From: Candidatus Hydrogenedentes bacterium CG07_land_8_20_14_0_80_42_17
GTDB lineage: Bacteria > UBA8481
Direction of reading: 5' to 3'
Length of the DNA stretch: 26,052 nucleotides
Assembly: GCA_002780065.1 (NCBI GenBank)
Contig: PEWQ01000080.1
Location: 57,322-83,373, forward strand
Both the position numbers and the translations under genes were made by a program. Below the pieces are notes generated by a model. The model ran no database searches. It saw only the letters and a list, made by a program, of their open reading frames with translations, and was not told the origin of the DNA. Below, piece by piece: positions 3,057-15,399 of this stretch; position 1 is the stretch's first letter; each line of letters starts with the position of its first letter.

Positions 3057-4265
3057 ATGGCTAAGGCTAAATTTGAACGGACGAAGCCTCATGTAAATGT
3101 AGGCACGATCGGTCACGTTGATCACGGTAAGACGACTCTTACTGCGGCTATTACAAAGGTTATGTCCGATAAAGGACTGGCCACGTATATAAGTTATGAT
3201 CAAGTTGCGAAGGCATCGGAGAAGCAAGGCCGCCGCGACGAAACGAAGATTCTCACGATTGCGACATCTCACGTCGAGTATCAGAGCGCTAACAGGCACT
3301 ATGCTCACGTTGACTGCCCCGGACATGCAGATTACGTCAAGAACATGATAACCGGCGCGGCACAGATGGACGGAGCAATTCTTGTCGTTTCCGCCGCTGA
3401 TGGTCCAATGCCTCAGACTCGTGAACACATTCTGCTTGCGCGTCAGGTAGGAGTTCCGAATATTGTAGTTTATTTGAATAAGTGCGATTTAATGGAAGAC
3501 CCTGAGTTGTTAGACTTAGTTGAACTTGAAGTGCGAGAACTTCTTTCAAAATATAAGTTCCCGGGCGATGAAGTACCGTTTATTCGCGGCTCAGCGATAA
3601 AAGTTTTGCAGGGCGATACAACAGATCCTCTAGGAGTTCAATCGATTGAGAAACTGTTGGAAGCTTTAGACTCTTACATTCCTGAACCTGTTCGAGAAGT
3701 TGACAGACCATTCTTGATGCCTATTGAGGATGTATTTACAATTACGGGCCGCGGCACAGTAGTGACTGGCCGTGTCGAGCGCGGAATTGTTAAAGTTGGA
3801 GACGAAGTCGAGATCATCGGATTTCGAGATACTCGCAAAAGTATTGTTACCGGCGTCGAGATGTTCCGTAAGCTGTTAGACGAAGGACGTGCAGGAGATA
3901 ATATTGGAACGCTGCTGCGCGGCATTGACAGAACGGACATTGAACGCGGAATGGTTTTAGCAAAACCTGGAACTACTACGCCTCACAAGAAGTTCAGTGC
4001 AGAAGTTTACGTATTGACTAAGGAAGAAGGCGGAAGACACACTCCGTTTTTCAATGGATATCGTCCGCAATTTTATTTTAGAACAACAGACGTAACAGGT
4101 TCATTGAACCTTGCCGAGGGTGTTGAGATGATCATGCCCGGAGACAATTGTCAAATCGTAGCCGAATTGATAACTCCGATAGCGATGGAAGAGCAACTTC
4201 GATTTGCTATTAGAGAAGGTGGAAGAACGGTAGGCGCAGGCGTTATCACAAAGATTATTGAGTGA
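3057..4265 (+). CDS. tuf: Elongation factor Tu with a variant switch I
   Basis: EF-Tu delivers aminoacyl-tRNA to the ribosome as a GTP complex. The 402 residues include G1 GHVDHGKT (19-26), G3 DCPGH (86-90), G4 NKCD (141-144) and a G5-like GSAIK. Domain 2 has [17 protein letters not shown] and domain 3 ends [15 protein letters not shown]. The odd part is residues about 51-68. Where most bacterial EF-Tu proteins read a form of D-x-A-P-E-E-K-x-R-G-I-T-I, this one reads [18 protein letters not shown], about five residues longer and without the R-G pair. The Mg-coordinating threonine appears kept as T67. A strong AGGAGG sits at 3044-3049, seven bases before the ATG. The 65-base gap after fusA is one of the longer ones in the operon. 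Confidence 0.97.
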
Positions 4266-15247: not shown

Positions 15248-15249
15248 GA

Positions 15250-15385
15250 GCATCTGTTGATGCAAAGCATCCGTTGATGCAAAGCATCCGTTGATGCAAA
15301 GCATCCGTTGATGCGAAGCGTCCGTTGATGCGAAGCATCCGTTGATGCGAAGCATCCGTTGATGCGAAGCGTCAATTGACGCAAA
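15250..15385 (+). repeat. eight tandem 17-bp hairpin units between map and infA
   Basis: Eight head-to-tail 17-bp units fill almost the whole map-infA gap, with consensus GCATCCGTTGATGCRAA. They start at 15250, 15267, 15284, 15301, 15318, 15335, 15352 and 15369. Within each unit GCATC and GATGC can pair around a 4-base loop. Unit 1 has a changed loop (TGTT). Unit 5 has GCGTC, leaving a G-U pair. Unit 8 is GCGTCAATTGACGC, where both sides of the same pair changed and the stem is kept. GATGC can also pair with GCATC of the next unit around a 3-base RAA loop, so two folding registers compete. The infA ribosome-binding site lies just beyond unit 8. Confidence 0.95.
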
Positions 15386-15399
15386 GGAAAGGATAGGAT

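Follow-up and report, generated by a model that had tools for sequence, protein, structure and literature searches.

A longer, alternative switch I block in the EF-Tu of a Candidatus Hydrogenedentes bacterium and its scattered occurrence among bacterial phyla

The tuf gene of the window and its switch I block

The window, i.e. the whole stretch of 26 052 nucleotides that was analysed, corresponds to a str-S10-spc-alpha cluster. Its tuf gene (positions 3057-4265, + strand) lies after fusA and before rpsJ, has an intact open reading frame and encodes an EF-Tu of 402 amino acids, which scores 707.8 bits against the TIGR00485 profile (cut-off 522.4). It is the sole tuf found in the assembly: the search for a second copy, advised in the original prediction, revealed none over the TIGR00485 cut-off in the bacterium's own genome (2.39 Mb), but one may have been missed since the assembly consists of 207 contigs and is 86.9% complete.

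It had been predicted that the G motifs of this protein are normal with the exception of switch I, and this is what we find. The P-loop (G1) reads GHVDHGKT (3111-3134, + strand) and includes D22, equivalent to E. coli D21, at the position of a monovalent-cation ligand (the role of this Asp is taken from PMC4342817). Judging from the sequence and the alignment with the E. coli protein, the G3 motif DCPGH of switch II (3312-3326, + strand), with the catalytic H90 (H84 in E. coli), is normal, and so is NKCD of G4. The Mg-binding threonine of G2, T67 (3255-3257, + strand), is invariant across an alignment of 49 EF-Tu proteins. Outside the switch I block, every functional residue checked is identical to that of E. 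coli EF-Tu (pairwise alignment, L182). The neighbouring EF-G (gene at 856-2991) is also unchanged, as predicted, and keeps the canonical ERGITI (1030-1047, + strand).

The R-G-I-T-I sequence is the near-universal context of G2 and is general in translational GTPases; in typical bacterial EF-Tu proteins (TIGR00485; E. coli, Thermus), switch I is of the form DxAPEExxRGITI. In the window EF-Tu, K-I-L-T-I is found instead at residues 64-68, within a non-canonical segment at residues 51-68 (positions 3198-3281 encode D48-Y75). Because profile, fold and gene place are all those of EF-Tu, we regard K-I-L-T-I as a variant within the family and not as a reason for exclusion from it. Pairwise alignment with E. 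coli EF-Tu bears out the prediction of a real, longer switch I devoid of the R-G pair: there is one insertion of five residues, G59 is absent, I60 corresponds to L66 and T61 to T67. The five extra residues are D61-I65 (DETKI; 3237-3251, + strand), their placement inside RRDETKI being alignment-dependent. The alternative block extends from Y47 to S71 (3195-3269, + strand); no other stretch of the protein has columns that are strongly linked to the switch I type in four phyla. It is five residues longer than in the E. coli and Thermus proteins and lacks R58-G59, P53, K56 and D50. In contrast, the three domains, G1, G3 and G4, the Mg-binding threonine, the place in the str operon and the tRNA- and antibiotic-contact residues checked are alike, and identity to E. 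coli chains is ~70%. The long-type segment has the consensus DxVAKASExxGRRDxTKILTI, and we defined the long (+5) type by the pattern [VI]A[KR]A[SD]...[RKT]Dx[TS]K[IV][LVM]T[IV] in block 47-71, which the window EF-Tu matches.

Distribution of switch I types among bacteria

When named genomes were scanned with residues 40-122 of the window protein, the +5 segment was recovered at 15 loci, and most other loci were canonical. The +5 records are named Gemmatimonadaceae, Acidobacteriota, Planctomycetota, Kiritimatiellota, Bipolaricaulota/Acetothermia, Nitrospira, Hyphomicrobium and two Bradyrhizobium isolates; the genomes compared are mostly MAGs, so that contamination may affect taxon labels and apparent two-copy cases. 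By its str-operon neighbours the Hyphomicrobium record is an alphaproteobacterium (100 with Bradyrhizobium), and the tree gave no confirmation of the Nitrospira label of the other record. The same scan revealed a +2 form, DIAKGGTVRDxTKTVTI, in Planctomycetota and in a Puniceicoccales record. The window segment shares A-K, R-D-x-T-K and T-I with it, R-G being absent from both, and both types exist in Planctomycetota. However, the +2 form is three residues shorter, with GGTV for ASExxGR and KTVTI for KILTI; the window protein, with five extra residues, ASEKQGRRD and KILTI, does not match the +2 pattern GGTxRDx[TS]K[TIV]VTI.

Whole-genome samples were then typed by a pattern printing the segment, so that the fractions given here are those of genomes matching the pattern exactly. 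Among Gemmatimonadota, ~74 of 124 typed genomes (about 60%, counted from the listed rows) have the long type, the rest being canonical. The long type was found in 18 of the 119 Acidobacteriota sampled (15%) and in 4 of 121 Hyphomicrobiales (3%). The original prediction had taken a form common and scattered over phyla as an argument against its own reading. This is borne out in part: the form is scattered and, in Gemmatimonadota, common, and is thus not peculiar to a single lineage. The suggested likeness to planctomycetes holds in part: of 75 typed Planctomycetota, 27 have the +2 form (TVRDxTKTVTI) and 8 the +5 form, but 36 are canonical and 4 intermediate. The intermediate planctomycete forms (L261, L262, L279 and L280; TRRSDSKIITI, TQHGADKILTI, EQRGETKILTI) may show how the canonical, +2 and +5 types are related; in L261, the P-loop has SHGK for DHGK and has thus lost the cation-binding Asp. 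A sub-variant, AKADAKxFRRDxTKILTV, is common to Acidobacteriota and Bipolaricaulota (L189-L192, L017, L020).

Most typed genomes carry one switch I type only. A single long copy is found in G271, and two identical long copies per genome in the Nitrospira and Hyphomicrobium records. One long and one canonical copy coexist in Bradyrhizobium and in two related Acidobacteriota genomes, G340 and G370. A further candidate for this category, G161, was discarded: its canonical copy is gamma-like and probably a contamination. In Bradyrhizobium (L018 3884-5089, L019 3884-5089, L186), the long tuf is a stand-alone second gene and the str-operon copy is canonical; the L018 copy sits among ORFs which, judged by eye, are TonB-receptor-like. 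In G370 (L274/L276) and G340 (L275/L277), it is the long tuf that lies in the str operon, and the long and canonical copies are 77% identical outside the block.

Independence of switch I type from EF-Tu backbone and taxonomy

One other genome from the window's phylum was compared (G001; same order, other family). Its tuf has the same place in the operon and a canonical switch I. A tree built from EF-G and the ribosomal proteins of the same gene clusters places the window and G001 as sisters (100); in it, the long and canonical types are interleaved, well-supported branches forcing at least 7 changes of type. At least 6 changes are forced in the EF-Tu backbone tree; the backbone trees were built with residues 38-72 removed, and deep branches are poorly resolved in such single-protein trees. 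The window and G001 are again sisters in the four EF-Tu trees without switch I (91; 99/92; 95; 99/91), and each flank alone still pairs them (97/86 for the G domain without the segment, 92/79 for domains 2-3). Because both flanks pair the window with a canonical relative, its switch I seems to be of another history than either of them. When the segment is left out, a tree that unites all long types in one clade is rejected (AU p = 1.75e-6). A tree joining the window to the Gemmatimonadota long types is not rejected (AU p = 0.117), so that a whole-gene transfer into the window's lineage, although less likely, may have occurred; outside the block, the window EF-Tu is ~81% identical to that of G001 and also ~81% identical to one long-type Gemmatimonadota protein. 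The Gemmatimonadota long types themselves form one backbone clade while their species are interleaved in the translation-gene tree; whole tuf genes therefore moved in this phylum. The long copies of Hyphomicrobium and Bradyrhizobium cluster as well in backbone trees. Thus, the long type is separate from the backbone and follows no taxonomy; both its spread and the mosaicism are observed, and movement probably occurs in two modes, by whole genes and by short tracts. Two other proposals were abandoned. A planctomycete ancestry of the window tuf is unsupported, the window pairing with the canonical relative in its own phylum, and a pairing of L007 with L047 and an acidobacterial canonical backbone, seen with few rows, was gone once more Acidobacteriota were sampled.

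Long-type proteins were compared with canonical ones inside each of four groups (Gemmatimonadota, Acidobacteriota, Planctomycetota and Alphaproteobacteria). Consistently type-linked columns lie at 47, 50, 51, 54, 56, 57, 58, 60, 61, 63-66 and 71 in all four; sites 47-58 and 71 had not been used in the definition of the types. Outside 47-71, type-linked signals are weak (columns 35, 140 and 204 in the four phyla). Strong type-linked changes elsewhere in EF-Tu are absent, and the block is self-contained. A per-column test on independent pairs comprised 3 supported pairs only. At the diagnostic sites of its block, the window protein is of the long type in 13 cases, of neither type in 1 (K56) and like G001 in 0, whereas the sites outside the block are split, 18 being long-like and 20 like G001. 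No donor signature was found in the window tuf from codon use, GC3 or synonymous matches; GC3 is raised over codons 41-100, to a level reached by 11% of the windows along the gene.

Possible consequences and origin of the long switch I

As modelled by AF2, the window EF-Tu has three domains and takes the closed GTP form, with a TM score of 0.92 to 1EFT and 1TTT and of about 0.54 to most GDP forms; switch I itself is modelled with low confidence (pLDDT near 50). The long form seems to be absent from solved EF-Tu chains, whose best alignments all show a 5-residue gap or start after the indel, and we found no description of this form in the open-licence full-text literature. A Pseudomonas prolyl hydroxylase is said to act on Pro54 of EF-Tu. 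Published work places the target of this enzyme in switch I (PMC4682802) and describes switch I, which passes the tRNA acceptor stem, as a gate in tRNA selection (PMC10495418). Methylation of K56 lowers GTP hydrolysis, T61 is phosphorylated and R59 contacts phospho-T382 (PMC5851678); Lit cleaves EF-Tu at Gly59-Ile60 (PMC3014915); and the main-chain carbonyl of a switch I Gly binds a monovalent cation together with the P-loop Asp, as described for eIF5B and extrapolated to translational GTPases (PMC4342817, PMC4509514). Gly59 is absent in all long types, and the K56 and Pro53 positions are mostly Gln and Ser. Most of these known features of switch I are altered or lost in the long block.

We consider it likely, with a probability of roughly 0.7, that the window encodes a working EF-Tu with an alternative switch I allele, an old variant that would have moved between phyla, would be interchangeable in function with the canonical form and would make a longer, differently regulated gate. 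The allele comprises about 25 residues (47-71), the five additional ones lying between the helix of switch I and the Mg-binding threonine; it would be homologous wherever it occurs and would have passed repeatedly from one EF-Tu gene to another across bacterial phyla. In some lineages it may have travelled with the whole gene; in the window's lineage it would most likely have arrived as a short recombined tract inside a vertically inherited tuf. Functional consequences such as the original prediction expected are plausible; as to the biochemical effect and the selective cause of the allele, we infer the following. Because no further EF-Tu was found in this genome or in some of the others, the protein must presumably support normal elongation, and GTP cycling and aminoacyl-tRNA delivery should be kept. 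The loop, longer and differently charged, would do without the cation-binding Gly, K56, Pro53/54 and the Gly59-Ile60 bond; it could change the gate for the tRNA acceptor stem, escape the known modifications of switch I and be refractory to cleavage of the Lit type at Gly59-Ile60.

An artefact of sequencing or assembly, such as paired frameshifts or a chimera, could be imagined in a genome as fragmented as this one, but the frame is open and the same 22-residue segment is present in many independent genomes, including those of Bradyrhizobium isolates, and is thus due neither to chance nor to frameshift. These natural homologues, which agree with the original prediction, leave such an explanation practically no credit. 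An alternative that deserves serious attention, although we hold it for the less probable one, is that the block never moves alone and that one or a few old lineages of long EF-Tu displaced the native tuf in place. The single backbone clade of the Gemmatimonadota long types despite interleaved species, the clustering of the Hyphomicrobium and Bradyrhizobium copies and the tolerated junction of the window with Gemmatimonadota are all as expected from whole-gene replacement; but it does not explain why the window pairs with canonical G001, over the complete backbone as well as in either flank, nor why a single long clade is rejected. That the two types descend from two early tuf copies appears improbable. 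Gene conversion would have homogenized their backbones, the difference in length would have shielded the block, and random loss would have followed. Two tuf copies subject to gene conversion are usual in many bacteria (PMC4342817), and G340 and G370 still hold one copy of each type. Yet the copies in these two genomes are 77% identical outside the block, so that conversion is not at work there, and most typed genomes have a single type.

Another view is that the long block is a selected escape allele, kept because targets in switch I are lost (those of Lit-type cleavage at Gly59-Ile60, of prolyl hydroxylation and of K56 methylation) or because another agent directed at EF-Tu is evaded. The sites altered in long types are documented targets, long and canonical copies persist side by side in Bradyrhizobium and in the two Acidobacteriota genomes, and the patchy spread is as expected under such selection. 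We nevertheless find this view doubtful. A Lit search of the window's own genome gave no relative, though the control search did not give any match either; no linked defence or toxin gene was noticed by eye near the stand-alone long copies. Moreover, the elfamycin-site residues, at positions which we take to be the known sites of resistance to kirromycin, GE2270 and pulvomycin, are all those of E. coli, i.e. of the sensitive type, and do not follow the switch I type; the idea of an elfamycin resistance allele was dropped on these grounds. A bolder and equally doubtful version would be that switch I is an exchangeable cassette, and that agents attacking or modifying it drove repeated short-tract recombination into the tuf genes of many phyla, with a retuning of the tRNA gate. 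A second, stress-linked EF-Tu resistant to EF-Tu inhibitors is known from actinomycetes (actEF-Tu; Streptomyces tuf3; PMC4342817). It is likewise an alternative form of EF-Tu, and in Bradyrhizobium the long type also is a second copy, but the window tuf is the only one found, lies in the str operon and has sensitive-type residues at the inhibitor sites tested.

If the preferred reading of a mobile switch I allele is right, a part of EF-Tu thought to be fixed in all life would exist in exchangeable versions. The findings show that an essential informational gene, whole or in part, has crossed between phyla, which calls for caution in the use of EF-Tu as a phylogenetic marker. A natural and widespread alternative in which the switch I Gly, K56, the Pro that is modified and the bond cut by Lit are missing, and which no strong compensating change elsewhere in EF-Tu accompanies, would also allow the role of these residues to be tested by a simple swap.

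Covariation with EF-Ts, a check suggested in the original prediction, did not appear at the level of EF-Ts architecture: 8 short and 7 full forms accompany the long type, and 6 short and 3 full ones the canonical type. The window's own genome has a short EF-Ts (L317; G000 C6:7044-7643), with a 222-codon frame in which model positions 97-175 are missing; that of its order-mate G001 (L303) is full-length, and Gemmatimonadota and Acidobacteriota each mix short and full EF-Ts. Elsewhere in the window, in the spc operon, a tandem array of eight copies of the 17-bp unit AGCATCCGTTGATGCAA lies between map and infA (15249-15386), and each unit contains a small hairpin, GCATC-CGTT-GATGC.
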